A stretch of DNA of 64,000 bases, from the IMG/VR virus record IMGVR_UViG_3300029922_000029, positions 44,700 to 108,699 of that record. The stretch is one strand, 5' to 3'. Every line of letters starts with the position of its first letter. The stretch's first letter is position 1. A model generated the notes under the pieces. The model was not told the origin of the DNA. It made no database searches and saw only the letters and a list, made by a program, of their open reading frames with translations. Made by a program: the position numbers and the translations under genes. Shown piece after piece: positions 20,877 through 58,956 of this stretch. The DNA comes from a virus.

Positions 20877-21263
20877 TTACCGTGCGATACTGTTTCCGCT
20901 AATGTCTGGGCCTGTTGAGCGAGTCATCGTGTCGGGCCCGACCGGGGTAGGCGCAGAACCCTTGGCTGGAGTCAGAGGGGCCTTGTTGGTCTGCTTGGTC
21001 TTTTGGTAGGCCTTGATCTTCTGGGTTGCGAGGGCTGTGCCGCCGCCCAACAGACCACCACCTACCGCGCCCTTCAGAGCTCCGCCCAGGCCACCGCGAT
21101 TGCCTTGCTCGTCTCTCCCCATAGCTCCTGTTGCGCCGCCGGCGACCGCGCCTGCGATCGCGCCACCCCGAACCAGTGGATTCTTGATCACTTTCTTGGC
21201 TGCGCCCAAGATTTGATTTGTATTAAAAGCGGAGGTTTTGAGAAGACCGATGGAGAATGTCAT
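20877..21263 (-). CDS. Glycine-zipper protein with MTFSxGL N-terminal signature
   Basis: 128 aa. It begins MTFSIGLLKTS, the signature found on about ten small proteins of the virion cluster. The middle is a long Gly/Ala tract (RGGAIAGAVAGGATGAMG, GGLGGALKGAVGGGLLGGG) typical of membrane-inserting glycine zippers. The C-terminus is Pro/Thr-rich and disordered. It lies between sheath and tube genes. A membrane-active, possibly injected protein is a reasonable guess. Confidence 0.6.
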   Translation of the reverse strand: MTFSIGLLKTSAFNTNQILGAAKKVIKNPLVRGGAIAGAVAGGATGAMGRDEQGNRGGLGGALKGAVGGGLLGGGTALATQKIKAYQKTKQTNKAPLTPAKGSAPTPVGPDTMTRSTGPDISGNSIAR

Positions 21264-21266
21264 CGA

Positions 21267-23270
21267 TTACACGTTAATCGTGATGTCGAGGTTGTTCAAT
21301 GGGATCGGAATTCCCAAAGTGTAGTTCTCCAGCACTGCGTCGATGTTGACCGGATCCTGCGCGATCGAATTCACGACGCCCGAGGTAATGACTCCGCCGA
21401 TCTTCGGAAGGATTGTCTTTTCCTTCAGGTACGTCAAGAGGCCCTGGGCATTGCCTTTGAGTTCGTCGATCGTGCCGGCCACAATGTTGTAATCACCGAT
21501 GTACTGCTTGTGGTTGGTGCGGATAAACTTCGCGATAAAGTCGACGTTCTTGGTGACCGAGAACTCCTGGAACTTAATCGCAGACGTATCCGTTGTCAGC
21601 TGCTGGCGGATATAGAGAGGAGTTTGGTTGATGACGTCCTGAACAAAGATCATCATGCCGCCCGAAGCCATCACGTTCAGCTGATCATTGCTGAAGTAAT
21701 CATTCGAGTGCAAGACGCCCGAGTAGGTCGCCACGGCCAGATTGGTGAAGCCCTGCTGAGTAGGAAGACCCGTCGTCAGCGCGCAGACTGAGGCATTCAG
21801 GAAGTAACCCGGGAGTTGCCGGATCGTGGATCCCACAGGGATTGAGACCACGTCAGGCCAGGTCAGAACAAGCCGGCGATCGCCCAGCGCGGAAGCGTAG
21901 GAAGCCATGGTGGCTGCCTGCTGATCCTTGGTCAGGTTCTCGTCGATGAAGTAAGTGACGCCAGTCGCGGCAAAGGTGGGAGCCGTAGCCGCAACCAAGG
22001 TGAGGTGCGTCTGCGAGTCGACCGACGCGATCGCGTAGCGACCAATGACGTTACTTGGGCTGGGTCCAACCACATTCAGGAACTCACCTGGGACAACGCC
22101 ATCCGTGATGAAGGAAGCTTCTGAGTCGGTGAACCAAATATCGGCGCTCCCAGAAGGCCCGGAGAGGCCATCGGATCCGGTCGTCAATGTTTCCTCAGTG
22201 ATCGCTTGGGTCGTGACGAGCTCACGATTGATGATACCGACGCGCTCGAGTTTCTGTTCAGGCACGGAGTAATCGTCCACATGCGTCTTGAGAAGAGTGT
22301 GGATAGCAGTGTTCTCGGTCAGCACACCAATCGCGTACACGTCGACCAAGGCCAGGACCTCGAGCGCCAGGCCGTAAGCAATGCCTTCGTCGCCGGTATT
22401 AGGGCCGTCACCGTTATCGAGGTAAGCCTGTGGGAGAGCGAGGATCTGGTTCTGTGCGACCGAGTTGTTGATCGCGAGGAGCGCCGCGAAGGCCAGCGTG
22501 TTCTCGGGCACCAGTTGATCGGTCCCGAAGTCAGCCTGGAGGCTTGCGAGAGCCGTCGCGCCCGCGTAACCCCTCATCGAGGCCGAGTAATCGAACCGCA
22601 GCGCGCGGTAGCTCAGCAACACGTTCGCACTCAAGATCGGAACCGTTCCGAAGACAGCATGAACGTAGGTGAGGCCGACCGGGAGGCCCACGCCGGCGTA
22701 AGCCACCGTGACACCGCTCGTCGAAGTCGAGAGCAGGATATTGCCGATTGTTGCCTGCAGGTTCCGCTGCATCGTGTAGCTGAGTCCGGTCTCATTGAGA
22801 GCCGCGAACTCTTCATTCAGTTGCAGGCTGTTGTTATTCAGCTTTGCGCGCACGATATACGTACCGTCATTGCCCATGGTGCTGCCCGTAACAATCAAGG
22901 AATCGCCGGGAAGGATATTGGCAAAGGCATTCGTCGTGGCATCATCAAAGGTCGTAATCGTGGTGGCGTCCGTGGCGCCCGTCCCTGTAGCTGTCAGGAT
23001 CTGAACCACGACCTGAGCAAGGGTGATCGTCACCGGATAGCTGGTGAGATCAGTGGGATCCAAGGGCCGGCAATCGATCTTGGTCCCCGCCTGCTGACCA
23101 CTGAACGTAAAGACGGCCGCACTCCCTGTGTAAGACCCCTCGTTCTCGAGGCTGATCACCTGAAAGGCCGGTCCGACCTGCACATTGGGCAGGCTGAACA
23201 AAGCCAATGCAGGAAGAGCATTGACGAAATTTTGAGTGACGGTGACTCCGGGTTGTCTAACGACGGCCAT
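21267..23270 (-). CDS. Contractile tail sheath protein
   Basis: 667 aa, the length expected for a large-phage sheath. The start AVVRQPGVTVTQ (P-G-V-x-(V/I) opening), the central beta domains, the TWPD strand and the conserved C-terminal region (IFVQDVINQTPLYIRQQLTT ... KFIRTNHKQYIGDYNI) are typical of sheath subunits, whose C-terminal domain interlocks with neighbours around the tube. It is the main evidence for myovirus morphology. Confidence 0.85.
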   Translation of the reverse strand: MAVVRQPGVTVTQNFVNALPALALFSLPNVQVGPAFQVISLENEGSYTGSAAVFTFSGQQAGTKIDCRPLDPTDLTSYPVTITLAQVVVQILTATGTGATDATTITTFDDATTNAFANILPGDSLIVTGSTMGNDGTYIVRAKLNNNSLQLNEEFAALNETGLSYTMQRNLQATIGNILLSTSTSGVTVAYAGVGLPVGLTYVHAVFGTVPILSANVLLSYRALRFDYSASMRGYAGATALASLQADFGTDQLVPENTLAFAALLAINNSVAQNQILALPQAYLDNGDGPNTGDEGIAYGLALEVLALVDVYAIGVLTENTAIHTLLKTHVDDYSVPEQKLERVGIINRELVTTQAITEETLTTGSDGLSGPSGSADIWFTDSEASFITDGVVPGEFLNVVGPSPSNVIGRYAIASVDSQTHLTLVAATAPTFAATGVTYFIDENLTKDQQAATMASYASALGDRRLVLTWPDVVSIPVGSTIRQLPGYFLNASVCALTTGLPTQQGFTNLAVATYSGVLHSNDYFSNDQLNVMASGGMMIFVQDVINQTPLYIRQQLTTDTSAIKFQEFSVTKNVDFIAKFIRTNHKQYIGDYNIVAGTIDELKGNAQGLLTYLKEKTILPKIGGVITSGVVNSIAQDPVNIDAVLENYTLGIPIPLNNLDITINV

Positions 23271-23288
23271 ACGTTTCGATCTCCTTGA

Positions 23289-24587: not shown

Positions 24588-24606
24588 TTGTGGTCGCTCC
24601 GAGGGT

Positions 24607-24831
24607 TCATCTGACTTTCATCCCGGGCCCCGGACTCACGGTATGCGAAATCGGCTTCATGGCCTTCCTGGCGTTCTGAGCGATCGGGTGACTCATCGTC
24701 GCGGTCTCGGGCTGTCCCGTGAGTGACTTCAGCCCCTGAACCGGATTACCCGGCTTGATGTCGGTCGTGATCCGCCTGGGTCTCGACATCGCGTTCATGC
24801 TGTTTTTTAGGCCCGTGGTGAAGGATCCCAT
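24607..24831 (-). CDS. Small protein with GSFTTGLK N-terminal signature
   Basis: 74 aa. MGSFTTGLKNSM is a looser form of the shared M-x-F-S-x-G-L-x-K signature. The rest is Pro/Thr-rich and basic, with no predicted fold. It sits in a run of four consecutive short genes bearing the same start signature. Confidence 0.5.
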   Translation of the reverse strand: MGSFTTGLKNSMNAMSRPRRITTDIKPGNPVQGLKSLTGQPETATMSHPIAQNARKAMKPISHTVSPGPGMKVR

Positions 24832-24832: not shown

Positions 24833-25027
24833 TCAGCACAGCGCCGTCACTTCGGAAGGATGGTCTGGATTCTTATTGAACAGCCATTTCATACAGCTCT
24901 CCGTTCGGTTCGAGGAGTCTTTGCCGGTTGCAGGGGAATTGTTGCCCTCAGAAATCTTCGAAGGTGCCTTGATCGGGGTGTTGTCGTGGTGCTTGGCGAT
25001 CTTCTGGAGGCCGCGGGAAAATTTCAT
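24833..25027 (-). CDS. Small protein with MKFSRGLQKIA signature
   Basis: 64 aa. It starts MKFSRGLQKIA and continues with a polar Lys/Ser/Pro-rich chain without obvious fold. ATGA overlap with the kinase-like gene upstream. Likely a minor virion component if the shared signature is a targeting tag. Confidence 0.5.
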   Translation of the reverse strand: MKFSRGLQKIAKHHDNTPIKAPSKISEGNNSPATGKDSSNRTESCMKWLFNKNPDHPSEVTALC

Positions 25028-25803
25028 TTGTTACCCAGAAATTTCTTACGAGAGTAGTTGGTCGAACTATTCATTGGTAATTTCCACTGCTGGTCCATAT
25101 AGCGTGTGTGACTTCTCATATGGGGTGATAAGTCCACAATTTTTCCACCAATAAAATTAGCATGCCGCATATCATGCAATCCAGGATACTTGGCCTTTAA
25201 CTTCTCAAGATGCTGTTCGGTTTCTGGCGATAGTTTGGGCTGTGTCTGGAACATTGCCCTTACGCGACTTCTGTGCTTATCTGCGCGCACATATTTTCTG
25301 TGACTAGCCTCATCGAAATCAATACGATCGCCTTCTGCTGGCCAGCGTTTATTCTCTAGGTCTTCAAATGCTTTGTGCTTTTGCTTGTAGAGAGTGTCGA
25401 TTCTACTGTGCATTTCTTTTGCGTGAGGTTTGCTGTATTCATAGTAACTCACCGGCTTTCCAGCAACTCTAGATAGAAGGTGTGCAAAATCACCTTTCCC
25501 TCCAGTTATCTTTTTAGTGTGCTTCCAGAGGTCTACTCTTTCTTTTTCCGCAGAAAGAGAGTCCATAAGGTGCTTGGGGTGAGTTGAGTCTAAGATCGGT
25601 ATTTTTCTAACCGCTAAACCGTGCTGTGGATGAAGAACCAAGTCAGCAATCTGCTCGCCTCCATGCCCCAGTCGTTTCACTTCTTTTGGATTAGAAACCA
25701 GTCCTTTTAGGCGGTCAATAGCTGAAGGGCTAAGATTGCCTTTAGCGATCTCTTTGATGAAGCGTGAGGTGGAGATTTTCTCAATGCCCCGTGAAAAGGT
25801 CAC
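25024..25803 (-). CDS. Protein-kinase-fold protein with virion signature
   Basis: 259 aa, GTG start in a GTGA overlap. It opens MTFSRGIEKIS, the shared virion signature. Kinase-like elements follow in order: LGHGGEQIADLVLH as a glycine-loop region, GLAVRKI with Lys67 at the VAIK position, a charged helix with Glu (residues 84-99), then LHDMRHANF with Asp211 and Asn216 at catalytic-loop spacing, and KIVDLS with Asp224 at the DFG position. This is a reduced kinase or aminoglycoside-phosphotransferase fold. The DNA is visibly more A+T-rich than its neighbours, suggesting acquisition. Activity and targets are unknown. Confidence 0.5.
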   Translation of the reverse strand: MTFSRGIEKISTSRFIKEIAKGNLSPSAIDRLKGLVSNPKEVKRLGHGGEQIADLVLHPQHGLAVRKIPILDSTHPKHLMDSLSAEKERVDLWKHTKKITGGKGDFAHLLSRVAGKPVSYYEYSKPHAKEMHSRIDTLYKQKHKAFEDLENKRWPAEGDRIDFDEASHRKYVRADKHRSRVRAMFQTQPKLSPETEQHLEKLKAKYPGLHDMRHANFIGGKIVDLSPHMRSHTRYMDQQWKLPMNSSTNYSRKKFLGNK

Positions 25804-26012
25804 CGGCTCAGTGTCCCTGCATCTTGCGGAGCCGCGGCACCGAAGCCTAAGCCTGACTTCAGATTTGACCAAGCCGAGCTCATGCTCGTACCGCCCGATA
25901 GTGCTCCGGCCTGCATCTGCCTGGCCTTGCGAGGGTCGATCATAGGAGAGCTTGGCGCATCGGCGATCTTACAAATGAGGAGTGCATTTTTCTTCAAACC
26001 CTTACTGAACAT
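25800..26012 (-). CDS. Small protein with MFSKGLKKNA signature
   Basis: 70 aa. MFSKGLKKNALLICKIADAP carries the shared signature and a second L-x-x-K-I-A motif that also appears in the large head proteins as LIAKIA. The rest is Ser/Gly/Ala-rich. Overlaps at both ends couple it to its neighbours. Confidence 0.5.
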   Translation of the reverse strand: MFSKGLKKNALLICKIADAPSSPMIDPRKARQMQAGALSGGTSMSSAWSNLKSGLGFGAAAPQDAGTLSR

Positions 26013-26950: not shown

Positions 26951-27688
26951 TTAAGTGAGACCTCGGTAATGGAAAATTTGAGAAATCTTTTTTAAATAGG
27001 CGTCTTCTGAAGCTTCCATTTTAGAGGATTGGCAGGTAAAGCAGGCTGGAACAGAATTATCTAAAGTATAGTATGACTCATTATTTAAGCGATCTACAGA
27101 GTTGCACGGCACTATTTCGCCAGTGCAGTTATTCTTTCTGTTAGAGATGTCACCACAGTAATGGCAAGGTTTTGAGGTGAGATGAGTATATTCCTCCTCT
27201 GATAAGCAGCTTTTAATATTACGTTTATTTGCACCATTCAGATGGTGTAAATATGAGGCGTGTTTTACTGCGCGGCCATTAGGTTTTTTTTGAGAGGTAC
27301 TAATCATTTCTCCAGTTTTGCATCCGCAACTTTTTACATCACCCTTAACTGCATTTCTGGATTTTTTCTCCACTTCATTCCCACATATACACTTAAAGAG
27401 CCATATGAATACCCCTGGCTCTTTACTATTGCGGACAAACTTTAAAGCTGTAAGGTACCCATAAGTTCTCCCAGTAATGTCAGCTGGCTTTCCGGTCTTA
27501 TGGCAAGTGCGACGCTGCCCCATTCTCAATTTAGACTCTATGACCTGTATTGCTCCGCCGCAGTCGCAGTCGCAGTTCCATAACCTTTCGTGCCCTGGGA
27601 CTACAGAGACCGCCGTAAGTTGATGAAACTTGTCGCCTGACTTAATCAATGCAGGCCCGTATTGTCGTGGCATCTGGATTACCCCCAT
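26951..27688 (-). CDS. HNH homing endonuclease
   Basis: 245 aa. Two N-terminal modules (SGDKFHQLTAVSV ... WNCDCDCGG; TGRTYGYLTALKFV ... WLFKCICGN ... SCGCKTG) precede an HNH nuclease (PCHYCGD ... NSVDRLNNESYYTLDN ... ACFTCQSSK). It is a relative of the genes at 19306 and 52072. More A+T-rich than its neighbours, in the same orientation as the virion genes it separates. A 7-bp hairpin (CTGATTG/CAATCAG, 27692-27712) marks its upstream edge. Confidence 0.8.
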   Translation of the reverse strand: MGVIQMPRQYGPALIKSGDKFHQLTAVSVVPGHERLWNCDCDCGGAIQVIESKLRMGQRRTCHKTGKPADITGRTYGYLTALKFVRNSKEPGVFIWLFKCICGNEVEKKSRNAVKGDVKSCGCKTGEMISTSQKKPNGRAVKHASYLHHLNGANKRNIKSCLSEEEYTHLTSKPCHYCGDISNRKNNCTGEIVPCNSVDRLNNESYYTLDNSVPACFTCQSSKMEASEDAYLKKISQIFHYRGLT

Positions 27689-29384: not shown

Positions 29385-30305
29385 TTAGAAGCTACCACCA
29401 CCCGGTATGGTCTGGGGAACCGCGAGCCGCAGCTTAGCCACGGAACGCAAATTGGCGATCCCCATACCAACGTATTCCCACGACTTCCAGAAGACCTTGT
29501 CGGCTTCTTTCTTGATCCAGAACTTGACGTCATTCAGGATGAAGAAGTTGCCCAAGAACTGTGGATCCGTGAAGGCGAAGATGTCACCGGGAGGCAAAAG
29601 ATCAGTCTTATTGGTGACTAACAAACGCCTCTTCATTATCTTGTCGGACGTCCACCCGTTGACGGTCATGTCAGACGCAAGGGGAGAGCCGACATCGGTT
29701 GCCTGCTGAGTCGTCCAGTCCGAGAAGTCCACGTTGGTCATGAGCAAGAGAGCCGACTGAAGAAGATCGCCGTCGATCATCTTGAACAGGCTGTTGAGCT
29801 GCGCGCGATTGACGATCGTGCCGGGAGAGTTGATGAACTTGCCCGAGTTGAACACGGCACCGTTGGCGGCAGCGAGACCAGTCGTGTCTTCGACACGCAT
29901 GATGTCTTTGATGCCGTTTTCTTCGATCACTTTCGTGATCTGGTACTCGTACGCCATCAACTCAGCTTCTTGCTTGCTGAAGAGATCGGTTTCGACCTTG
30001 AAGAACGGAACCGCGTAGCGAGTGCCTTGCAGGTAACGTTCGCGGCCGGCAGAACGGAAATTGACTGCCGCAGCCGTCGAGGGATGCTCGAAGTCCACGA
30101 TCTTCACCATCGTGTCGTGCTTGGTGGAGCGAGTCAGATCCGTCCGGACGACGGTTTCGGTGGGGAGCACTTTGCGGAAGAAAGAGTTCTCACGCAAGTA
30201 GCTCCGGATAAAGGCCTGGCCCACCATCGCGGTCTTCTGCTGACCATCTTGGGTGTCCATGCGCTCGACGAACAGGTTGTTAAAACTTACGGCTTCTTCG
30301 TTCAC
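29385..30305 (-). CDS. Major capsid protein (HK97 fold)
   Basis: 306 aa, GTG start with GAGGAGG 8 nt upstream. SFFRKVLPTETVVRTDLTRST and HDTMVKIVDFEHPSTAAAVNF give an N-arm and E-loop-like region; TRYAVPFFKVETDLFSKQEAELM is the spine-helix region; WKSWEYVGMGIANLRSVAKLRLA is a typical C-terminal P-domain end. The order protease - decoration-like - capsid is standard. Terminators on both sides suggest separate, strong expression. Confidence 0.78.
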   Translation of the reverse strand: MNEEAVSFNNLFVERMDTQDGQQKTAMVGQAFIRSYLRENSFFRKVLPTETVVRTDLTRSTKHDTMVKIVDFEHPSTAAAVNFRSAGRERYLQGTRYAVPFFKVETDLFSKQEAELMAYEYQITKVIEENGIKDIMRVEDTTGLAAANGAVFNSGKFINSPGTIVNRAQLNSLFKMIDGDLLQSALLLMTNVDFSDWTTQQATDVGSPLASDMTVNGWTSDKIMKRRLLVTNKTDLLPPGDIFAFTDPQFLGNFFILNDVKFWIKKEADKVFWKSWEYVGMGIANLRSVAKLRLAVPQTIPGGGSF

Positions 30306-31135: not shown

Positions 31136-31519
31136 TTAACGAGTGTCGACCTCACCATACAGTACCCAGCGCTCCATCTGGTTCAGCTTGCGGCCAGAAG
31201 AGTTGGAATCAGAATCATCCAGAGTGCCTGAATTGATGCCGACCGAACTTCCTCCGCCTCCCGCTGAATATCCGCGTTGGAGCGCTTTTTCTACTACCTG
31301 GAGGTCATCCTCTGTCATCAGAGACGCCACCTTGTTGAGAAACTCTTCATGGGTGCGAAAGGGCTCGGAAAAACCAAGCTCAATTTCGCGGAAAGCAACC
31401 TTCATCGCACGCTTCTCGAGGTCGTTATGAGCTGCGACCTTTTCGAGTTCCAGTCTGCGCGTATGCTCTTGTTTAAGAAGCTGGCCTGCTTTCTTGACCA
31501 GCTCGGGATCGTAACCCAT
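31136..31519 (-). CDS. Head-cluster hypothetical protein
   Basis: 127 aa. Helical first 95 residues (PELVKKAGQLLKQEHTRRLE, ELGFSEPFRTHEEFLNKVASL) and a flexible Gly/Ser-rich linker (SAGGGGSSVGINSG) to a short tail. LEKVA and LNKVA match the recurrent L-x-K-x-A motif of the head proteins. A scaffold or internal head role is possible. It abuts the next gene without a gap. Confidence 0.55.
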   Translation of the reverse strand: MGYDPELVKKAGQLLKQEHTRRLELEKVAAHNDLEKRAMKVAFREIELGFSEPFRTHEEFLNKVASLMTEDDLQVVEKALQRGYSAGGGGSSVGINSGTLDDSDSNSSGRKLNQMERWVLYGEVDTR

Positions 31520-32020
31520 TTACTCTCCGATCGTACGAGATGCGGGTTGGCTGGGAGAAGCCATGCTGCGCTCGCCGCTCGGAATGGGTTTGCCATTCTT
31601 TCCGGCGTTGACGTCATCGCCCTTAGCAGAAGCCATGGCCGCACCGACTGCCACAAAATCAACGAGGCGTTTTTTTAAACGACCCGCAGCGACTTTCTCC
31701 AGGGCCTCATCGACATGGGCATTCATGTGGCCCTGTTCGTAAGCCGCTTCCTGGAACCTAAACATCCGATCGAGTTCATCGAGCTGCGTATCGGCATGGA
31801 TCTGATTCATCACGACCGCTATTTTCTCGAATTCGTCGAGGCCGGTAAGGGAATCGTTTCCGGCGCACTTCTCGATCTGGGAGACGACAGCGTTGACTTC
31901 GGAAGAAGAGGAAGGGGCCCCAGAGACAGCCGCAGGAACAACTGGAGAGGCGGTTTTAATCACTTTCTCCAAGTCATTTAGGCGGTCCGCGTCTGCGAGT
32001 AGGTCTTTGAGTGGTCTCAT
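31520..32020 (-). CDS. Head-cluster hypothetical protein
   Basis: 166 aa. Helical and acidic in the middle (MNQIHADTQLDELDRMFRFQ), Ser/Ala/Pro-rich linkers. It contains VIKTA, FEKIA and LEKVA, three copies of the recurrent K-x-A motif. Likely an internal or scaffolding head component by context. Confidence 0.55.
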   Translation of the reverse strand: MRPLKDLLADADRLNDLEKVIKTASPVVPAAVSGAPSSSSEVNAVVSQIEKCAGNDSLTGLDEFEKIAVVMNQIHADTQLDELDRMFRFQEAAYEQGHMNAHVDEALEKVAAGRLKKRLVDFVAVGAAMASAKGDDVNAGKNGKPIPSGERSMASPSQPASRTIGE

Positions 32021-32059
32021 AGATTCCTCAAGAGTGGTGTGTTCTGAGGCCCCGATTCC

Positions 32060-32953
32060 TTAATCTTCCTTGTGACCCATCAAGCGGTGAGCGAGAGCAG
32101 CACCGCCGGCACCCGCTGCGGCGCCAGTGCCCGCACCGTAGTAGGCTTTATGCTTGCCGACATGGCCGCGAGCCTTGTCGTAAGCGCCACCCAAGTGCTT
32201 CTTGAGTTTAGCCATGTGGCCCATCGCTGCGCCGGCTTTAGTCCCGCGTGCCGCGATCTTCTCGATGCCGTCACCGATCAGGTTCTCGACGGATTCCTGC
32301 ATCCGGACTTCGTCCGCGAGCTCGGCAACCGTGCACTCAGAGGCTTTCTTGTCGTGGCCGCTCTTGTGACGGAGAGCCATGTGAGCTCCGAGAGCTCCGA
32401 CACCGGCACCTGCGATCAAGGCCGCTTTGCCCTTGTGCTTCTTGCCGTACTTCATAGCTTCATGGCCATGACCCTTGGCGGCTTCGTAAGCCTTACCGAG
32501 GCGAGCCTTGGTCTTGTCAAGGAAGCCCTTGGCCTTCTTGATTTTCTTGGCGTCGGCAGTCTTAACTGCGTCTTCAGCCAGCTTTTCGATCTGGTTGATG
32601 TAGCCTTCCAGCATCGCGGCACCGCAGACCTGAGCGATCTTCTGGAGTTCGACGGGGTCCGAGTTTTCGACGACACCCGAAGCCGCCTGAGCTTCGTCCA
32701 TGGCCTTCAGAATTTCTTCTTCGGCACCATCGAATTCAGCCGAAGCTTCTTTCGAAAGGGGTTCTTCGTCATCGGCTTCCGCGAATTCGCGGTCCGCACA
32801 ATAAGCGCCGTACGCGTAGATGCTTTCGACCAGATCGTTGCCAGCAAGGCTGGCTTCAGCCTGCTTGACGAGCTCGGGGTCGAACTCCTTCGCCAGAAGC
32901 GCCTGGAGTTGTTCTTCGTTCATACCCTGCAAAGCCTGTTCAATCTCGTTCAT
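32060..32953 (-). CDS. Internal head protein, helical with glycine-zipper
   Basis: 297 aa. The acidic N-terminal half (LVESIYAYGAYCADREFAEA) is followed by a Lys/Gly/Ala-rich half with two similar segments: a lysine-rich helix then a hydrophobic glycine zipper (KHKGKAALIAGAGVGALGAH and KHKAYYGAGTGAAAGAGGAA). Many K-x-A motifs (KIAQ, KLAE, KTAD, KKAS, KIAA). The repeated membrane-active segments suggest an ejected internal protein. Long open antisense frames here are shadows. Confidence 0.55.
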   Translation of the reverse strand: MNEIEQALQGMNEEQLQALLAKEFDPELVKQAEASLAGNDLVESIYAYGAYCADREFAEADDEEPLSKEASAEFDGAEEEILKAMDEAQAASGVVENSDPVELQKIAQVCGAAMLEGYINQIEKLAEDAVKTADAKKIKKAKGFLDKTKARLGKAYEAAKGHGHEAMKYGKKHKGKAALIAGAGVGALGAHMALRHKSGHDKKASECTVAELADEVRMQESVENLIGDGIEKIAARGTKAGAAMGHMAKLKKHLGGAYDKARGHVGKHKAYYGAGTGAAAGAGGAALAHRLMGHKED

Positions 32954-33017
32954 TTTTGAGTCTCCTGAGGTTTTTGTTTCCGGTCGTTGTGATCCGAAAC
33001 GAATGGGTTAAGGCCGA

Positions 33018-33746
33018 TTAGGTCTGGTGATAAGCTCCGACATCGCCAGCCTGCGCCTTGATCTTGCGCTTCAGCATTGCCTGAGCGGTGACTTCGGGAA
33101 TGTCCATGCGCTTGGCCGTGCTGCCGTTGGTTTCGACCTTGCCGCCACCGGTCGCCTTGTGGTTGACCGTGATGGCTGGATCTTGGCCGTTACCGACGAT
33201 CGCGGCGAGTTGGCCGCTGTTGGAGAGACCGGCCATGGGCTTCGAACCTTCTTCAGCGCCGCCAGCGGAGTCGCCTGCGATCTTGTCGAGGTAGCAGGTC
33301 TGGCCTGCGTTGAAGTAGTGAGCCACGCACTCGCCGAAGAGCTGAGCGGGGGTGGCGTCTTCGTCGTTGCCTTCGACAACACCGCCGACCACTTCGGTCA
33401 GGCTCGCGACTTTGGTCTGCCCACCGACCGCAGCGGTCAGGGAACCCGCAGCAGCGGGATCAGCAGCCGCGGCGCCAGCCGTCTTATCGAGACCTTCGGT
33501 TCCAAAAACTTCCTCGTACATCGAAGTGAAATCACTCATTGCGGATCCTCTTTCTTGGGTGGCGGCCGATGCAGTTTTCGTCTGCTCGGTGGCCTGGGTT
33601 GCGGGGGTTTGGGCGAGTCCCAGGCTCTCGATCACCTGGTCGACTTCACTTTTGCCACCAGCCGCGGGAGCAGCTGATGCAGTCTTGGTTTGCGATTTGT
33701 CATCCATTCCGAAATCAGACAGCATTTGTTCGAGAGTACGTGACAT
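33018..33746 (-). CDS. Putative scaffold/internal head protein rich in KTA motifs
   Basis: 242 aa, mostly disordered Ala/Gly/Thr/Gln-rich. KTASAA occurs twice and KTAG, KVAS, KIAG once each, regularly spaced between short helical modules. This looks like a precursor cut at several places by the head protease encoded just upstream. Scaffold or core protein is the best contextual guess. Confidence 0.5.
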   Translation of the reverse strand: MSRTLEQMLSDFGMDDKSQTKTASAAPAAGGKSEVDQVIESLGLAQTPATQATEQTKTASAATQERGSAMSDFTSMYEEVFGTEGLDKTAGAAAADPAAAGSLTAAVGGQTKVASLTEVVGGVVEGNDEDATPAQLFGECVAHYFNAGQTCYLDKIAGDSAGGAEEGSKPMAGLSNSGQLAAIVGNGQDPAITVNHKATGGGKVETNGSTAKRMDIPEVTAQAMLKRKIKAQAGDVGAYHQT

Positions 33747-33759
33747 GTGGGGTCTCCTT

Positions 33760-35643
33760 CTAAAGAGCCAATTGAGTCATTGCCTGCAGGAGCAAGAGCT
33801 CCTGCGCAGGTAGCCGGTTCGTCATAGGAAGTTGATTTGGATTGAGTTCGCCCGTGCCCATGACGGAAGCAGCCTTCTCGAGAAGGCTCGAGACTTCAGC
33901 TACATCGCTGGGTGTTTGTGTGAGGAGGCTTCTGGCGAGCAGAGAGACAGGAAGCCGGTCACCGAGCGTCTCAGGGGTCTGCCCGGGTTCAGAAAGATAA
34001 ATCAGTCCAGACACCCCTTCGAGGGGATGATGGCCTAACTTAGGGAACCAGGAGAGAGCTTCCAAATCGACGACGGAACCGGTTTTGATAACCGCAACGG
34101 GACGTGCTTGTAAATCTACAAAACGTCTCCGCCAGTCTTGAGTATACAAGTCTTGGCTGCCCCCCGCAAGGTCGTATTGCCCGCTGACTAAAGGCTTCGC
34201 ATTGGAAGACGCCAGGGTCTTGGCCGCAGCGGCGATGGGGAGGCCGGCGAGAAGCAAGGGAATGGGGTGATTCAAGAAGAGATCCCGGAGTTTCTCGGGG
34301 ACAAACATGGCAGCCAGAGCTACGAGTAAGCCCTGCTTGATGCCTTGCTCAAAGGTACCGGGCTGCTTCTTGTGCCTAGACTCTTCAGCAGCCCTCTTCA
34401 CCATCTTGGGATCCAGCTGCCGAAGCCTGATCATCAGGACGGGAGGGCTAAAAGAACGCTCGGGGATGAAAGGTGCGAGTGCGTCACAGCACTCCGGGCT
34501 GACGCGGTGAAGACCTTCAGCCTTCTTGCCCGTGAAGATCTCGCCGATCGTGCGCGCCTCGTCGGGGGTCGGCGCGATCGCAAGAGTCACGAGGGATGAA
34601 AGGAGCTCGGGGAGGCTGGAGCTCTTCGCAACGGATTCGAAGGTCTGGCGCGGGATAGGCTTCGCCGAGCGGTCGAGGGCCAGCTTGATGGCCGCACTCA
34701 GAGCCGTGACCTTTTTCGCCGCCTGGGCCGGGACTTCGGACAGTCCGGGGCGGGGAACCACAGAAACACCCGGGATCTGCTTCTTGATGAAGGCTTTCTT
34801 GGCGACAGCGGCCTGTTTGATGCCGCGTTTCATACCGTAGGCTTGCTCGAGTTCTGATGCCACCTTATCCAAGTAGACTGGATCGCCGACCGCTCCAGGC
34901 GGCAGCTCAGCAAGGTGAGCCGAGCCCAAGCGGGAAGGCGCGGCAGCACTCGCAATCTTCTCCCACATGTAAGCCGTCTTGTCGGCTGGGATCAGGACGC
35001 GGGAGATATCGAAGAATTTCGGATGGGGGTTCCGCGCAAAGACCGCCTTGCCAGTATCTGGATCGATCTGCCGCAAAAGGTACCTGAGGTGATCGCAATA
35101 CTCAGCGCGTGTCTTGGCTTTATTCAGGCAGATATTGCAGACGTCATAAGGCAGTTTTGCGCCCATCGAGGTCGTGATGGGTTCACCACGGTCGACCATC
35201 GCGGCGCCCTCGGGGTCGCGAGCTGGATCGATCCCGATGACGAGCTCCACGCGCTTGGCGTTCTCATTCCAAACAGCGAGGATCACCTTCCCTTTGGCTA
35301 GGGCTGGGTTTTGATTGACGTGATGGGTAAAGTAATTCGCGTTAGTCTTGAAGGTGTCGACCCCGTAATCGGGCCCGCGGTGGGAGAGTGGCTCTTCACC
35401 GAACCAATCCGCATTGATATTGTCACCCCAATATTCACCCGCTCCGAGTGCCGTGATGAGCGCCTGAACCAATCCCTCCATGGGCTTGGCCTGCTCGATA
35501 TACTTCTGGACTTGTGGGTGGTAGGCAAACTTGCGGTTCGCGCTGGCGGCCTGCTTGAGAAGGTAGCGACGATCCTCTGTAAGCAGGAACACGTCCCGCT
35601 CTTTACGGCTCAGGTTTTGAGGGTAGAGGAGGAGCTTATCCAT
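33760..35643 (-). CDS. Head maturation protease (prohead protease-like), large
   Basis: 627 aa. Residues about 65-240 carry the pattern of a phage head protease: WGDNINADWFGEE, YGVDTFKTNANYFTHHVNQNP, KGKVILAVWNENAKRVELVIGID, then PITTSMGAKLPYDVCNICLNKA and RAEYCDHLRYL, ending KFFDISRVLIPADKTAY. The His in THHVN and Ser in TTSMG are candidate catalytic residues. About 390 further residues form a long C-terminal part with Ala/Lys-rich linkers and K-x-A motifs, perhaps an internal scaffold. It is expected to cleave head precursors during maturation. Confidence 0.65.
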   Translation of the reverse strand: MDKLLLYPQNLSRKERDVFLLTEDRRYLLKQAASANRKFAYHPQVQKYIEQAKPMEGLVQALITALGAGEYWGDNINADWFGEEPLSHRGPDYGVDTFKTNANYFTHHVNQNPALAKGKVILAVWNENAKRVELVIGIDPARDPEGAAMVDRGEPITTSMGAKLPYDVCNICLNKAKTRAEYCDHLRYLLRQIDPDTGKAVFARNPHPKFFDISRVLIPADKTAYMWEKIASAAAPSRLGSAHLAELPPGAVGDPVYLDKVASELEQAYGMKRGIKQAAVAKKAFIKKQIPGVSVVPRPGLSEVPAQAAKKVTALSAAIKLALDRSAKPIPRQTFESVAKSSSLPELLSSLVTLAIAPTPDEARTIGEIFTGKKAEGLHRVSPECCDALAPFIPERSFSPPVLMIRLRQLDPKMVKRAAEESRHKKQPGTFEQGIKQGLLVALAAMFVPEKLRDLFLNHPIPLLLAGLPIAAAAKTLASSNAKPLVSGQYDLAGGSQDLYTQDWRRRFVDLQARPVAVIKTGSVVDLEALSWFPKLGHHPLEGVSGLIYLSEPGQTPETLGDRLPVSLLARSLLTQTPSDVAEVSSLLEKAASVMGTGELNPNQLPMTNRLPAQELLLLQAMTQLAL

Positions 35644-35911: not shown

Positions 35912-35914
35912 AGA

Positions 35915-37189
35915 TTAAGTCTTCTTCTCGGGCTCGCCCTGACCGCCCTTGCCCTGACCGCCCTTGCCCTTACCGCCAATACCCATAGGGAAGTGCAGCG
36001 TTTCCATCACGCCCTTCATTCCGCCCATGAACCCTTTATTGCCGCTGACCGAGCGGTCGACGGCCGAGTTGGCTTCCGCCAGTCCCTTGATGGTGTCGGG
36101 CGCGATCCGGCCGAACGCCTGGACTTGCTGCTCGAGGAAAGAACGGAGAACCGGAGGGCGCGCGGCGAGGGCTGGTGCGACCATGCAGATCGTATCGAAG
36201 GCTTCACGCGCGGCCTGAGGATCTTGCTTCAGGGTATCGTTCGTCCGCATCAACTGGCTGAATTGATTCTGTGCCTCATTTTTGAGGTGTGCGTCTTGCG
36301 AGCGATCGTACACAAGCTTCACGAGGCCTAATCCGCCCCCGAGTGCGAGAGCGGGAGCGATGTATGCGAGATGGTCAGCCAAACCCTTTGCGCCCTTCCC
36401 AAGCATATCCTTCATGCCGGAACCGAAACCACCCTTCGCCGCGGCCGTTTTCATCATGTGAACGCGATCGCTCACCATGCGGCCCAGGCAGGCTTCCGAG
36501 ACGTAGAGCGGGAACTCAACCGAGCTCTGCTTAGTCTGGTTCTTCGCTTGTGCCTTGCCTCTGGCATGAGCATAGAGTTCCTCAGGGCTCATGTTTCTGT
36601 AAACACTGGGATCAGAGATCTCGGAAACCAGCGTGGATTTCAAAAGTTTTCCGGCATCGGCGACTTCCTGATCAATAGATTGAAACTTTTTCTCAGTGCG
36701 CCTGAATGTTTCCATCCCGAAGATATTCAGGGATTTCTCGAGAGCACCCAGAATCGCCGCGCGGGCTCCGGCGCTTGCAGTTTGAGGGCGACCCGCCGTT
36801 CCCATCCGAGAGGCTTCGATCACGGAGAGCTTGTGGACATCATCGAGGCTGAAGCCGGTATCAAGCCGTTCGGTCAAGAGCTTGTGCGCCATCTGGGGGT
36901 TCTTCGCAACAGTCGGAGCCACCACGGAGAGCTCGCCAAAGAGAGCGGCGAATTTCTGGGGATCCTGCTTGAATTGCGGGTTCTTTCCAAAAGTGGCATG
37001 AAGACTGTCGGCCAGATCTTTCTTATGGTTCTCGGTAGCGCTGCGTCCGCTCATATAACCGTAGAGGCCCGCGGCACCCGCGATCCCGGTGACCCCGAGA
37101 AGTGGAAAGAGCATAGCCTTCATCTTTTTGGCGGTGGCCGGGGTCAGCATCGACTCGGCTTTTGCGGCTTCTTTTACGACTGTGCTCAT
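35915..37189 (-). CDS. Virion-cluster membrane protein with internal duplication
   Basis: 424 aa. Two halves repeat the same plan. A hydrophobic helix (MLFPLLGVTGIAGAAGLYGY; LAYIAPALALGGGLGLVKLV) is followed about 30 residues on by a helical block (FKQDPQKFAALFGELSVVAP with TVAKNPQ; LKQDPQAAREAFDTICMVAP with ALAARPP). The C-terminus is Lys/Gly-rich (GKGKGGQGKGG). The two membrane-like helices and location among head genes suggest an internal ejected protein that contacts the host membrane. No family is recognised. Confidence 0.6.
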   Translation of the reverse strand: MSTVVKEAAKAESMLTPATAKKMKAMLFPLLGVTGIAGAAGLYGYMSGRSATENHKKDLADSLHATFGKNPQFKQDPQKFAALFGELSVVAPTVAKNPQMAHKLLTERLDTGFSLDDVHKLSVIEASRMGTAGRPQTASAGARAAILGALEKSLNIFGMETFRRTEKKFQSIDQEVADAGKLLKSTLVSEISDPSVYRNMSPEELYAHARGKAQAKNQTKQSSVEFPLYVSEACLGRMVSDRVHMMKTAAAKGGFGSGMKDMLGKGAKGLADHLAYIAPALALGGGLGLVKLVYDRSQDAHLKNEAQNQFSQLMRTNDTLKQDPQAAREAFDTICMVAPALAARPPVLRSFLEQQVQAFGRIAPDTIKGLAEANSAVDRSVSGNKGFMGGMKGVMETLHFPMGIGGKGKGGQGKGGQGEPEKKT

Positions 37190-37371
37190 GTTGGCCCCCG
37201 AGGCGTTTGCATGCTGGTCACACGCTTCATGTTCTGGCTAAACTGGTTGCTGGCGTCGGCGGCCGTCAGAACTGCGTTCAGCTTCCCACCGGCCAGATTG
37301 GTGATGGCTTTGGCTGCAGAGCCGATGATTCCGGCTGTCTTCTTGAGACCGTCACTGAACTTAGAGCCCAC
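37186..37371 (-). CDS. Small protein with FSDGLKKTA signature
   Basis: 61 aa, GTG start. MGSKFSDGLKKTAGIIGSAAK holds the shared signature, followed by an amphipathic Ala/Gly-rich helix. Overlaps both neighbours by 4-11 nt. Confidence 0.55.
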   Translation of the reverse strand: MGSKFSDGLKKTAGIIGSAAKAITNLAGGKLNAVLTAADASNQFSQNMKRVTSMQTPRGPT

Positions 37372-38245
37372 GGATCTTTTCCTTCAACTGAGGAAGAGTG
37401 GCATCCACAATCCCGCGGTGGGTGCGGAGATGCTCTTCCTCGTCCCATTTCCCGCCTAAGGTATTGATGGTGATGTAGAGTGCGTGGTTGCCATTCACGA
37501 TCTTGGCCGGGATGTCGTAGTTGATTAGGCTTTCTGGTGCCTGCTGCTCGGCGAATTTATAGAGGCCCTGGACCGTCAGGACATGGGCGATCTTTGCGAT
37601 GAGGAGCGCGGTCTTGTTCTTGCGCTTCGGATCGCTCACGGCCGAACGTACAAACTCAGCGATCTTCTTGAGGCCCTCGCCGCGGTCGGTGAAAGGCATC
37701 TCAATCAGCATCTGACGGGCTTCTTTGATGAACTTGATCTCGAGAGCTTCGATCTGAGAAGTGATCTCGATCTGCTTGTCGCTCAGGCGTTCGGAGGCCG
37801 CGGCTGTCTTTTCAAGACGGTTCGTGAGTTCGTGCTTAAGTAGTCGCTTGTCAGACGCCAGCTTCTGGTGGCCATTCGTGGGCAGAAAGGCGGTCCAGGT
37901 GTCGGAGGCCTGCTTCTTCATGGCCCTTGAGCCTTCGGGGGGCGCCATGTAGTCTTCTGAGGCCTGCTTGCAGAGGACAGGAGCCACGGCCTGGAGTTCA
38001 CCTACGACTTCGTCTGGGTTGACGGGGACGAAAGAGTAAGAGGCTTTCTTATCCAAATCGTAGAGCCCCTTCCAAACAATACCATTAGCCTCTCCAGTGA
38101 GGACAGGTATTTGCACCGGAGCAAGGCGCTCAGATGAGGCAACCTTCTTTAGCTCTGCCTTGAGGGTACTCTTCCCACCCGAGGTTAGAAAAGCCTCAGC
38201 AGCCCGTTTAGACAGAAGCTTCAGGGTCTCTCTCGTCTTATGCAT
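37361..38245 (-). CDS. Head-cluster protein rich in K-x-A motifs
   Basis: 294 aa. Mostly helical with at least eight L/I/F-x-K-x-A-like motifs (LKKVAS, LDKKAS, LCKQAS, MKKQAS, LEKTAA, LKKIAE, IAKIAH, LYKFAE). The stretch LLIAKIAHVL is echoed in the 711-aa protein at 58953 (LIAKIAHQ). The C-terminal 60 residues form a strand-rich domain (NGNHALYITINTLGGKW). A processed head component is likely; exact role unknown. Confidence 0.55.
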   Translation of the reverse strand: MHKTRETLKLLSKRAAEAFLTSGGKSTLKAELKKVASSERLAPVQIPVLTGEANGIVWKGLYDLDKKASYSFVPVNPDEVVGELQAVAPVLCKQASEDYMAPPEGSRAMKKQASDTWTAFLPTNGHQKLASDKRLLKHELTNRLEKTAAASERLSDKQIEITSQIEALEIKFIKEARQMLIEMPFTDRGEGLKKIAEFVRSAVSDPKRKNKTALLIAKIAHVLTVQGLYKFAEQQAPESLINYDIPAKIVNGNHALYITINTLGGKWDEEEHLRTHRGIVDATLPQLKEKIRGL

Positions 38246-38584
38246 CTAGGTTCCTTCATGGCGGTGACCGCCGCGTCCCGGAGTCGACTTAAGGTTAAGC
38301 TCCCCAGCCATTCTATAAACTTTGTTTGCTTGATATTTACGGATGATCTTGCCAGCTTCATGCCCAGCGACGCCGCCAGAGGCTGCGCCGAGACCTGCGC
38401 CGATCAGCCCCACTTTGGATTTGTTGCCGTGCTTTCCCCTGAGTAAACCAATAGCTGCGCCAGCCCCTGCGCCCCCTATAGCACCCTTATATTTATCGCC
38501 GGCACCCACATGCTCATAAAACTCGGTCGGAGTCATGGTAACGACTGTGACTGCGATCTTCTTTAGGCCCGTGGAAAACAGCAT
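38246..38584 (-). CDS. Glycine-zipper protein with MLFSTGLKKIA signature
   Basis: 112 aa. MLFSTGLKKIAVTVV carries the shared signature. Two Gly/Ala-rich helices (GAIGGAGAGAAIGLLRG, GLIGAGLGAASGGVAG) follow and then a basic tail. First gene of the 18-38 kb minus-strand virion run; the operon promoter should lie in the 69-bp divergent gap to 38654, but no convincing box is seen. Confidence 0.58.
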   Translation of the reverse strand: MLFSTGLKKIAVTVVTMTPTEFYEHVGAGDKYKGAIGGAGAGAAIGLLRGKHGNKSKVGLIGAGLGAASGGVAGHEAGKIIRKYQANKVYRMAGELNLKSTPGRGGHRHEGT

Positions 38585-42871: not shown

Positions 42872-43090
42872 ATGAGCTTCTCCCTAGGACTCCATAAGGT
42901 CTCGGCAGCCAAGATGGGTCTCCGCGGCGTCATTGCCGCCACCGAAAAAGCACCGGCCAAGGCAATGTCGGGGATCGCGCAGAACAGCCTCAAGGCCATG
43001 CCCAAGCGCCCCAACATCATGGACATCAAAGACCTGCCTGCGGCCGCACCCAAGAAGAAGGGCTTTCTGGGTGGGATGTTTGGGTTCTAA
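42872..43090 (+). CDS. Small protein with MSFSLGLHKVS signature, on plus strand
   Basis: 72 aa. MSFSLGLHKVSAAK has the virion-cluster N-terminal signature, yet the gene lies alone on the opposite strand far from the others. The body is basic (AATEKAPAKAMSGIAQNS, APKKKGFLGGMFGF). It is separated from the polymerase operon by a terminator and must have its own promoter. Probably a relocated member of the family. Confidence 0.55.
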   Translation: MSFSLGLHKVSAAKMGLRGVIAATEKAPAKAMSGIAQNSLKAMPKRPNIMDIKDLPAAAPKKKGFLGGMFGF

Positions 43091-52088: not shown

Positions 52089-53286
52089 TCCTAGCCTCAC
52101 GGAGACTCAATCTAAAATCCAGTGCAGAACTTAACCAGAGCTTAAACTCTTCAACGGATCTATCGCTTTTTATGATGTTGCAGTATCTGCAGCAAGAGCA
52201 TACATTACCAACCACATATCCTAGATCACTGTTGATTCTGTCAATTCCACTATAAACGATCTCTCTTCTTTTATTTATATGCCTATTCCCATCGTTAGCT
52301 TTTGCGAATGGTGGATTTTTACAGTAGGTGCAATTTCCAGCCAATAAAGACTTGAAGTAATCAAAATCTAAATCAAAATTAATGTCCTTCTTCCTTTTCT
52401 TGGCCATGATTCTATAAGTGCTAAAAATATGTCTTTCTATGACTGGTACAGAGATATACTCACTTTTTGGGATAACGCCAGACTCTCTTATGTCTAGGGA
52501 CGCCTCCATCCACCTTAAGTAGTCCGCTACAGGATGCTCTCTTTTCGCCCTATTACAGGCTTTACAGCAAGTGACCACATTGCCAGTCGTATAGCTTCCG
52601 TTACTTTCCACCCTGTCTAATCCGTTGTAACTAACCTTATGTGTATATAGCTCTCTCTTAACTAATACTGTCGCCGCGGGGGGGCAGTTGCAGTAATTGC
52701 AATTCATCCCTATCAACTCAAGGAATTTCTCGTATCCAATCTCAAAAAGGAGTCCTCGTTCTTTCGCGTGCCAGATATAGGAGCCATAAAGACCCTTCTC
52801 AATAGTTTGTGGACTGCGAATTTTTTTAGCTCTTTCTACATTTGCACAACCACAACTAGTGGTATGCCCATCTCTGATGCTTGCAAGTCGCGTCTCAATC
52901 TCGCCTGAGCATCCTGCAACTTTGCCATCACAATCACACTTAGCTAGAATAACTGCTCTACCTCGATATGAGCCTGTAATTCTTACTACGGTAAGGCGAT
53001 TGAACTTTTGCCCAGATGGGTCTGATCCATTCCATCTGTTTGTTTTACTTGGACCACGGTAGTCTTTTGCGTAACAGTCTCTACACATCTCCTTGCAAGA
53101 GACATCCTTCAGGCATCCTAATGTCTTGCATGGACGAATTACTTTTTTAAGCTTTTTAGAAACACCTGGATCTCCATACTTTTGAAATGCACGCATATGA
53201 CTGCGACACATTTTATGTGTCCTATTTTCCCACGGTTTTCCACAGGAATTATAGATGCAAGACGTACCTAAGAAGATGGTTGGCAT
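52072..53286 (-). CDS. Double-HNH homing endonuclease
   Basis: 404 aa. N-terminal Cys-rich knuckles (IYNSCGKPWE, CKEMCRDCYAKDYRG), one SGQKFNRLTVVRI ... CDCDGK ... SCGCANV module like those of the genes at 19306 and 26951, then two successive HNH domains: NCNYCN ... YNGLDRVESNGSYTTGN ... CCKACNRAK and NCTYCK ... YSGIDRINSDLGYVVGN ... CCRYCNIIK. The tandem nuclease arrangement is unusual. A+T-rich; inserted immediately before the terminase gene, overlapping it by 17 nt. Confidence 0.82.
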   Translation of the reverse strand: MPTIFLGTSCIYNSCGKPWENRTHKMCRSHMRAFQKYGDPGVSKKLKKVIRPCKTLGCLKDVSCKEMCRDCYAKDYRGPSKTNRWNGSDPSGQKFNRLTVVRITGSYRGRAVILAKCDCDGKVAGCSGEIETRLASIRDGHTTSCGCANVERAKKIRSPQTIEKGLYGSYIWHAKERGLLFEIGYEKFLELIGMNCNYCNCPPAATVLVKRELYTHKVSYNGLDRVESNGSYTTGNVVTCCKACNRAKREHPVADYLRWMEASLDIRESGVIPKSEYISVPVIERHIFSTYRIMAKKRKKDINFDLDFDYFKSLLAGNCTYCKNPPFAKANDGNRHINKRREIVYSGIDRINSDLGYVVGNVCSCCRYCNIIKSDRSVEEFKLWLSSALDFRLSLREARNVRTA

Positions 53287-53315: not shown

Positions 53316-53933
53316 CTACAAGTGATCTCGGGCGTTTCGGTCTACCATCGAGAAGTGCTTATTCCAAGCCTCATTCGTAGTCTTCGCCGGCGTCACAAAA
53401 CCATCAAGGTCTAGGATCGCCTGCTTGATCTGCCGGCATGAGATGTCTGGATCCATCCCTCCCGTGCCAGTACAAAGCCCAGGAAACGCGATCGATCTTT
53501 CCCGCGGCTCACTCACGACGTACCGATCACAGTGCCGGGCTGCCAGGATCGCGGCGCGCGCAGCTAAGTAAGCATTCACTGTCGACGCGACTTGCATCGG
53601 GACCCGCATGGTCGGAGCAACAATCAAGAGAGGAATGACAAAGTCCTCGGTCGGCTGGATAAAGGCGCAGCCCACCGGAAGTTCTCCATTCCAATTGGAC
53701 TGGATGGCGTGCTGTACCATCCTCTGGATACCGGGGAATCTTTCTATGTAAGCAGCATCGACCCCGCCATCCATAAATCCGAAGCTATTGGCCGGCGACA
53801 CGACCGCATCCACCGACTTGAGTTTTGTGATGTCGCCCTCCACGATCGCGACGTTCGACATCGGAGCCAGGTGCTTGCGGTAGGCGGCGAGGAGTTTTTT
53901 GTCTCCGGGGAGAGCGACGAAGATGAGGTTCAT
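53316..53933 (-). CDS. Macro-domain protein
   Basis: 205 aa. NVAIVEGDITKLKSVDAVVSPANSFG (residues about 28-53) is the macro-domain opening (GDIT, then V-V-(S/N)-(P/A)-(A/S)-N). GGVDAAYIERFPG is the second loop, LPVGCAFI the G-x-A strand, AFPGLCTGTGGMD the phosphate-binding loop. Macro domains bind or hydrolyse ADP-ribose and its derivatives. It may remove ADP-ribose marks or capture NAD-derived signals. It lies directly upstream of the terminase/HNH block and overlaps its upstream neighbour by 4 nt. Confidence 0.82.
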   Translation of the reverse strand: MNLIFVALPGDKKLLAAYRKHLAPMSNVAIVEGDITKLKSVDAVVSPANSFGFMDGGVDAAYIERFPGIQRMVQHAIQSNWNGELPVGCAFIQPTEDFVIPLLIVAPTMRVPMQVASTVNAYLAARAAILAARHCDRYVVSEPRERSIAFPGLCTGTGGMDPDISCRQIKQAILDLDGFVTPAKTTNEAWNKHFSMVDRNARDHL

Positions 53934-58133: not shown

Positions 58134-58136
58134 CCC

Positions 58137-58427
58137 TCACTTCTTCTTCCGATCGTAAGCATGATGCTCGTACATATGAGCGTAAAGCTTCTCGTTGTGG
58201 ATCCCGCTGGTGTGCTCGACCTCAGCAACGCTGTTGATGAAGGGTTCGGCGAGATCGCCGTATTCGGCTTGCGTGATCTGGCCGGCCAAGCTTTTCTTCC
58301 GGGCCTCTTCTGCTTTTTTGAAGGCAGGCAGTATCTTCTTTACGTGCTCGTCTGTGATCTTGGGCTCGGGCTTTTTCTTACCGAAGCCGAAGAAGGCAGT
58401 TTTGATGAGGCCGTGAGAGAGACTCAT
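58137..58427 (-). CDS. Small protein with MSLSHGLIKTA signature
   Basis: 96 aa. MSLSHGLIKTAFFGFGKKK is the shared signature followed by a basic stretch. The rest is helical (ITDEHVKKILPAFKKAEEAR) and rich in His/Tyr at the end. ATGA overlap with the gene upstream; last of a coupled trio with the same signature. Confidence 0.58.
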   Translation of the reverse strand: MSLSHGLIKTAFFGFGKKKPEPKITDEHVKKILPAFKKAEEARKKSLAGQITQAEYGDLAEPFINSVAEVEHTSGIHNEKLYAHMYEHHAYDRKKK

Positions 58428-58615
58428 TCGGGTTTTTTCTTCCGGTTCGCGCCGTAAGCCGTACCTAAAGACCCCGCGGCCGCGGCGCCCATCAAGTAGT
58501 CTTTTCTGTGTTTGCTAAGATGTTTGCCGACAGCTTTACCGGCAGTTCTCGACTTGATGAAGGCCCTGTCGAGGCGAGTGTTGGCGGTTTTTTGGAGGGC
58601 GGTGGAGAAAGTCAT
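58424..58615 (-). CDS. Small protein with MTFSTALQKTA signature
   Basis: 63 aa. MTFSTALQKTANTRL, then a basic helix (SRTAGKAVGKHLSKHRKDY) and a short Gly/Ala tract (LMGAAAAGSLGTAYG). Middle of the signature-bearing trio, coupled by 4-nt overlaps. Confidence 0.58.
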   Translation of the reverse strand: MTFSTALQKTANTRLDRAFIKSRTAGKAVGKHLSKHRKDYLMGAAAAGSLGTAYGANRKKKPE

Positions 58616-58956
58616 TTTTTCTCTTCGTGTTTGTATTTGTGGCCCAAACGCTTGGCAATATGATAACCAGCATGACCACCGGCAACTACGCCAACTGGCA
58701 CAGTAGAAAGTAAAGCGATAGCGGCTGCTTTTCTTTTGGCTCCGTGAAGACGTGTCATACGTTCTTTGAGCAGCGTAATTGCTCCGGCTCCAGCTGCACC
58801 ACCAATATTCGCACCCAGGTGCGCAGCCCCACCCCGAAGCGCCCCAATTCCACGGTTAACAATGTGTCCGTGCTCATCTTTTTCACCGCCGGCAGCAGCT
58901 CCTATGAGGGCGCCGGTGACGAATGCCCGCTTCTGAAGTCCATCTGAAAAACTCAT
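58612..58956 (-). CDS. Glycine-zipper protein with MSFSDGLQKRA signature
   Basis: 114 aa. MSFSDGLQKRAFVTGALIGA, then Gly/Ala-rich segments (GALRGGAAHLGANIGGAAGA), a hydrophobic helix (AAAIALLSTVPVGVVAGGHA) and a basic tail. Like 20877 and 38246 it combines the signature with membrane-prone glycine zippers. 4-nt overlap with the large gene upstream. Confidence 0.6.
   Translation of the reverse strand: MSFSDGLQKRAFVTGALIGAAAGGEKDEHGHIVNRGIGALRGGAAHLGANIGGAAGAGAITLLKERMTRLHGAKRKAAAIALLSTVPVGVVAGGHAGYHIAKRLGHKYKHEEKK

Follow-up and report, generated by a model that had tools for sequence, protein, structure and literature searches.

Introduction

Encapsulin cargo-loading peptides, which are short, C-terminal and uncleaved, load unrelated enzymes into a shell of the HK97 fold. 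In bacteriophage T4, a capsid-targeting sequence (CTS) of about 10-19 residues forms the N-terminal propeptide of the unrelated internal proteins IPI-III and Alt, and is removed by gp21 (PMC9026906). Ten residues of IPIII suffice, with residues 4 and 7 acting in targeting and residues 8 and 10 governing processing (PMC9026906). The propeptides of phiKZ and SPN3US are mostly longer than 100 residues, with S/A-x-E sites (gp175/gp245), and the sole pair reported to share a start is SPN3US gp53/gp54, with an identical 15-residue N-terminus (PMC5694885). Here we describe a short N-terminal tag shared by about a dozen otherwise unrelated proteins of the virus record IMGVR_UViG_3300029922_000029, a contig of 108,699 bases. 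The window is the 64,000-nucleotide stretch covering bases 44700-108699 of this record, and the remainder was read as L002-L004. From sequence comparison, we put at about 80% the probability that the shared start is a cleavable capsid-targeting propeptide that would bring cargo into the phage head. The cargo of phage heads, and the proteins injected from them, are hard to learn unless virions are analysed by proteomics, and these phages have not been cultured.

A shared tag on unrelated proteins

The motif [FL]S.[GA][LI].K.[AS], searched in the six-frame translation of the whole contig, occurs 11 times, ten times inside the window and once outside it, and a start codon lies 1-4 codons ahead of the motif in all 11 cases. 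Among 175 gene calls, residue shuffling yields a mean of 0.003 occurrences and column permutation a mean of 0.002, with a maximum of 1, which sets the motif well above the chance level in gene starts that the first-pass annotation had named as grounds for abandoning its proposal. That annotation had described an N-terminal signature on about ten small proteins; the signature is real and larger than claimed, comprising 11 genes here and further genes in relatives. The bodies behind the tag are unrelated, as had also been stated, with a best E-value of 0.09 in an all-against-all blastp comparison. Glycine-zipper bodies are common among them, while Pfam and PHROGs return next to nothing for the tagged bodies of the window, and a nucleotide search of phage records gave no match. 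Synonymous codons vary at the conserved F, G, K and A of the tag, and therefore selection acts on the protein.

The K-x-A motif in the capsid protein, protease and assembly block

G[L/F].K.A, which makes up the second half of the tag, is also the motif of the capsid protein, the predicted protease and the assembly block. The major capsid protein (29385..30305, minus strand) matches the PHROG major head protein profile (3.4e-14), and its model has the HK97 fold, with Foldseek E-values down to 4.8e-10 and HK97 among the matches. Its residues 21-26 read G-Q-Q-K-T-A and are conserved. Of 68 major capsid proteins, 67 have K.A among their first 50 residues, in one alignment column and almost always as G..K.A, and this column is kept down to 27% identity.

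The predicted head maturation protease (33760..35643, minus strand) is assigned from PHROG profiles (head maturation protease, 1.8e-5; assigned in 40 of 44 members), from the position of its gene, from the invariance of His108 and Ser159, and from a weak fold match to T4 gp21. It contains K-x-A at residues 30-32 and 229-231. In an alignment of 44 relatives, K229 is invariant, and conservation is 90% or higher at K30, A32 and A231. The confidently modelled domain spans residues 43-231 and is bordered by both sites, and residues 26-34 have very low model confidence. Autoprocessing sites would be expected to lie in this way.

Sites of the form [LIVMFQ].K.[AS] were counted in the proteins of the source contig and set against expectation. 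Seven consecutive genes (31136-38245), which include the predicted protease and adjoin the major capsid protein, hold 39 sites versus about 10 expected. Beyond this block, the only enriched gene is 58953..61088 (minus strand; 11 sites versus 3.1), which encodes a 711-aa protein adjoining three tagged genes; the remaining genes are at background, with about 70 sites versus about 72. Within the block, all on the minus strand, two small proteins have 4 sites each (31136..31519, 0.37 expected; 31520..32020, 0.78 expected), two presumed scaffold or core proteins have 5 each (32060..32953, 1.8 expected; 33018..33746, 0.88 expected), and two further assembly-block proteins have 5 (35915..37189, 2.3 expected) and 10 (37361..38245, 1.5 expected). 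The protein of 32060..32953 contains DGIEKIA, which repeats the G[IL]xKxA of the tag. After the A of internal sites, S, A and G are favoured (S in 40% in the source contig), which suggests that the cut falls after K-x-A, although the exact bond is one that we infer.

The first-pass annotation had proposed a capsid-loading tag that ends in a head-protease site. Everything that sequence can test agrees with it, as G-x-x-K-x-A recurs in the major capsid proteins, at the edges of the protease and in the assembly block, and the shared motif would then be the actual cleavage site.

Relatives and dialects

Protease and capsid-protein searches of IMG/VR yielded about 160 loci, and the motif search over contig and relatives that had been suggested earlier found the tag clade-wide, in dialects. 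In near relatives it reads M(x)F-x-x-G-F-x-K-x-A, and in relatives whose capsid proteins are about 52-61% identical it reads F-W-x-G-F-E-K-[R/Q]-A. Farther relatives have F-x-[D/E]-E-L-x-K-[I/L/V]-A or the short form M-x-L-I-E-K-[L/I/V]-A. In L141 and L143, several adjacent unrelated small genes start with this short dialect. At the DNA level, tag patterns match 7 times in G000, 7 times in G001 (the L008 contig), and 11 times in each of G002 (L009) and G003 (L010), with no match to the reversed control in these four.

The dialect listing contains 201 tagged open reading frames (ORFs) in about 128 body clusters, and the clusters are the better measure, if an approximate one, as short proteins were joined by single-link clustering. 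The two main regular expressions match 103 and 54 ORFs, compared with 3-5 and 0-1 for controls in which letters were swapped or reversed. When 2.9 million viral contigs were scanned for exact matches to FW.GFEK[R/S]A, 34 distinct ones were obtained, 31 of them at most 8 codons from a start. The FADE[LF] core is less specific, because only 35 of 64 matches to FADE[LF].K[I/L/M]A in the viral contigs lie at most 12 codons from a start. A generic N-terminal site test on mechanical gene calls was blurred in the far clades by start errors. The dialects track capsid lineage, which suggests that the tag may co-evolve with a docking partner.

One separate IMG/VR contig, L088, shares the tagged genes of this phage, and its capsid protein is 100% identical; therefore either the phage has been sampled repeatedly or there is overlap between the records. 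In bacterial genome assemblies, relatives of the major capsid protein are found on four short contigs of metagenome-assembled genomes, and because these have mixed labels, we claim no host.

Several tagged bodies in the relatives have recognizable functions. The tag is found on two SNF2-type helicases (L013, L100) and on a Nudix hydrolase (L114, E 5.8e-18), with weaker DnaJ-like and DNA-ligase-like matches. These bear on an unlikely alternative, in which the tag is solely an extended substrate of the prohead protease and its bearers enter the head by other means, with no role for the tag in targeting. Such an account gains from the capsid and core proteins, where G-x-x-K-x-A stands without the F-x-x part. 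It does not explain why strong conservation of the F-[S/W]-x half is seen in tags and not upstream of internal sites, and the tagged helicases and Nudix enzyme have no evident other route in.

Internal and C-terminal copies

A search for the core F-x-x-G-[F/L]-x-K-x-[A/S] at positions removed from start codons returned 21 rows, 15 of them in contigs of the FW clade, whose membership was set by capsid-protein identity or by the tag itself. A second K-x-A stands immediately ahead of the core in nine of these 15 rows, as in EKSA|FWDGFEKRA, LTKKA|FWQGFEKRA and EKTA|FWVGFEKQA, and in two FW-clade cases (L109, L114) the tag is at the C-terminal end of the protein. An internal targeting peptide needs a cut on both sides, and the copies bracketed by K-x-A are therefore independent support for processing. 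Cassettes that lie within or end longer proteins, right after K-x-A, were noted in L101, L114, L116, L179, L180, L184, L186, L189 and L195. The bracketed cassettes look as if two products had been joined through a removable linker. In L195 and L182, a small recurring segment (SQRRKFYALKAEGKM-QKTIDEWE-ETP--LPER) precedes the tag, and tagged modules have therefore been shuffled with other small domains.

Internal and C-terminal copies also remove explanations that depend on the translation start. The idea that the similarity reflects initiation context or chance has in its favour that every occurrence in the source contig is at a gene start, but the shuffled nulls and these displaced copies refute it, as does the variation among codons, and its probability is practically nil. 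It is also very improbable that the tagged genes are paralogues derived from a single small gene of which nothing but the N-terminus was retained, with a functionless tag. In favour of this, tagged genes are frequently adjacent (24833/25024/25800; 58137/58424/58612), yet their tag codons differ and their bodies share nothing, and conservation across capsid-protein divergence to about 55% identity, together with the internal and C-terminal copies, needs selection.

Isolated distant relatives

The only relatives that have been isolated are distant ones: Salmonella phage Arash, Vibrio phages D69/D148/D181 and Bacillus phage G. All share with the source contig a related protease and capsid protein, and Arash and D69 also share a K-x-A-rich assembly block. 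In Arash particles, 116 proteins were found, including gp218 and gp220-gp226 (PMC10585845). These eight are the positional counterparts of the block in the source contig, with gp220 corresponding in position to 37361..38245, and gp218 probably, by eye, to 58953..61088. The site count is high in Arash gp220, gp222, gp223, gp225 and gp242 and weaker in gp4, and it is at background in 63 Arash proteins not labelled structural, a set of longer genes of our own selection, some of which occur in the mass spectrometry table of that paper. Arash gp242 (L174) has 8 K-x-A sites versus 1.35 expected and may be a processed head protein.

Three Arash virion proteins start with a bare K-x-A/S, namely gp206 (MPKSA, L175), gp100 (MEKQA, L173) and gp224 (MHKES), and these starts may represent a minimal form of the tag. 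The first of them, gp206, is the RNA polymerase beta protein and the most abundant protein in virions. Virion proteomics in this group comes from Arash only, a distant relative that is itself without the tag, and trypsin-based proteomics poorly distinguishes a cut next to lysine.

The assembly-block protein of 35915..37189 (424 aa) looks internally duplicated by eye. Each of its two similar halves has a hydrophobic segment and a VAP--A--P motif, and its Arash counterpart, gp221, is about half the length.

Proposed mechanism

By analogy with T4, it is proposed that the N-terminal half of the tag (F-S-x-G, or F-W-x-G or F-x-D-E in relatives) would dock each protein on the core or scaffold of the prohead or on its protease, and that the C-terminal half, [L/F]-x-K-x-[A/S], would be recognized by the prohead protease that the phage itself encodes. 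The same protease is predicted to trim the N-terminus of the capsid protein, its own flanks and the core proteins. During head maturation the tag would be cut off, probably after K-x-A/S, and the freed cargo would stay with the DNA inside the filled head and could later pass into the host together with the genome.

Docking to some other compartment (tail, baseplate, nucleus-like shell or membrane), with the K-x-A likeness secondary, is a further possibility to which we give little credence. Several tagged genes do lie among tail genes, such as 20877 beside a sheath-like gene, and most tagged bodies are without known function. The K-x-A motif, however, also stands in the N-terminus of the capsid protein, in the protease and in the assembly block, and it brackets the internal tags.

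Several points weigh against the capsid-targeting propeptide. Packaging and cleavage of the tagged proteins are predictions from sequence. Tag patterns had no match in Arash, D69 or phage G. The kinship of the protease to T4 gp21 is weak, with gp21 at rank 20 of the fold matches (E 0.29, probability 0.54; TM 0.31 by query and 0.52 by target), and a protease profile run against PDB sequences gave noise only, with no solved sequence relative. The regular expressions were picked post hoc and refined on the same data that they count, and tagged homologues of related contigs are not independent, so that the counts overstate the number of origins. Finally, the tag of gene 24607 is broken.

A broader form of the capsid-targeting reading, which we favour with distinctly less confidence, is that the tag is a position-independent excisable cassette (K-x-A | F-x-x-G-[L/F]-x-K-x-A |), with dialects co-varying with capsid lineage, that would load many unrelated proteins into heads, SNF2 helicases and Nudix enzymes among them, and whose reading would list an injected proteome from metagenomic sequence. 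With a tag that is readable from sequence, the cargo of a large and diverse group of phages would be open to cataloguing, and injected proteins could be revealed. Such a tag would also provide hundreds of small, uncharacterized genes with a role, and would supply a short loading peptide for engineering.

Tagged genes and other features of the window

Ten of the eleven genes listed by the first-pass annotation carry the motif. Directly downstream of a tail-sheath-like gene, 20877..21263 (minus strand) encodes a 128-aa protein starting MTFSIGLLKTS with a glycine-zipper body. Three more lie close together on the minus strand. The first, 24833..25027 (64 aa), starts MKFSRGLQKIA, and the second, 25024..25803 (259 aa), starts VTFSRGIEKIS from a GTG at 25803, not 25872, and has a GxGG segment. 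The "kinase-like" domain once ascribed to this second protein is unsupported, as no fold was identified with Pfam or PDB profiles; its relatives at L012:19675, L110:3656 and L112:7712 are each tagged in their own dialect. The third, 25800..26012 (70 aa), starts MFSKGLKKNA, with a tag shorter by one residue. The tag of 37186..37371 (minus strand, 61 aa), VGSKFSDGLKKTA, is longer by two residues, and syntenic tagged genes are present in L008, L010 and L011, with KGFIGGFEKTA in L009. The glycine-zipper protein of 38246..38584 (minus strand, 112 aa) starts MLFSTGLKKIA and has syntenic tagged relatives in L008-L015. On the plus strand, 42872..43090 (72 aa) starts MSFSLGLHKVS, and the equivalent place in L009 has MNFLKGFRKVA. 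The remaining three are on the minus strand: 58137..58427 (96 aa, basic) starts MSLSHGLIKTA, with L in place of F, 58424..58615 (63 aa) starts MTFSTALQKTA, and 58612..58956 (114 aa, glycine zipper) starts MSFSDGLQKRA. Outside the window, a tagged gene with MMNFSSGLKKSA is located at L002:14271-14504.

The eleventh listed gene, 24607..24831 (minus strand, 74 aa), had been described as a weaker case and does not fit the motif, since in MGSFTTGLKNSM the L and K are adjacent without an intervening residue. A comparable short gene at L008:18433, matched to it by eye, has the perfect tag MFVSGFTKTA.

Elsewhere in the window, two HNH-endonuclease-like ORFs were seen by eye, one among structural genes (26951-27688) and one (52072-53286) beside a terminase-like gene (50349-52100). 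A macro-domain-like protein (VDAVVSPANSFGFMDGG, 53316-53933), also recognized by eye, is a possible ADP-ribose enzyme, and near the contig end an ORF of near-identical MAGFPGHD/MAGSPGLD repeats spans 63543-63977.

Comparison with known systems

In the open-access literature, no description of this tag was found: no paper contained the string GFEKRA, and searches for comparable N-terminal tags of metagenomic phages led only to the work on T4 and SPN3US. The encapsulin peptides differ from the tag described here, which is mostly N-terminal and predicted to be cleaved. The phiKZ and SPN3US systems are alike in having repeated three-residue sites in the capsid protein, protease and internal proteins, but their sites end in Glu and their propeptides are long, whereas the tag has 11 residues with K-x-A, and neither an S/A-x-E site nor a long propeptide.

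The T4 CTS resembles the tag in being a short N-terminal sequence on otherwise unrelated proteins, and the tag would share its two-part plan of a targeting first half followed by a head-protease site at the end. The two differ in that their sequences are unrelated, the T4 site being [L/I]-x-E and the tag here [L/F]-x-K-x-[A/S], and in that they belong to different phage lineages. The cargo here is also more numerous and more varied, counting the relatives, internal and C-terminal copies occur, and the kinship of the protease to gp21 is weak. Judged against the open-access literature, these comparisons support the tag as a previously undescribed form of capsid-targeting propeptide, without homology to the T4 sequence. 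The solution known from T4, in which a short address at the N-terminus runs into a protease site, would then exist with K-x-A in place of L-x-E, as an address that would also be usable inside a protein or at its end.

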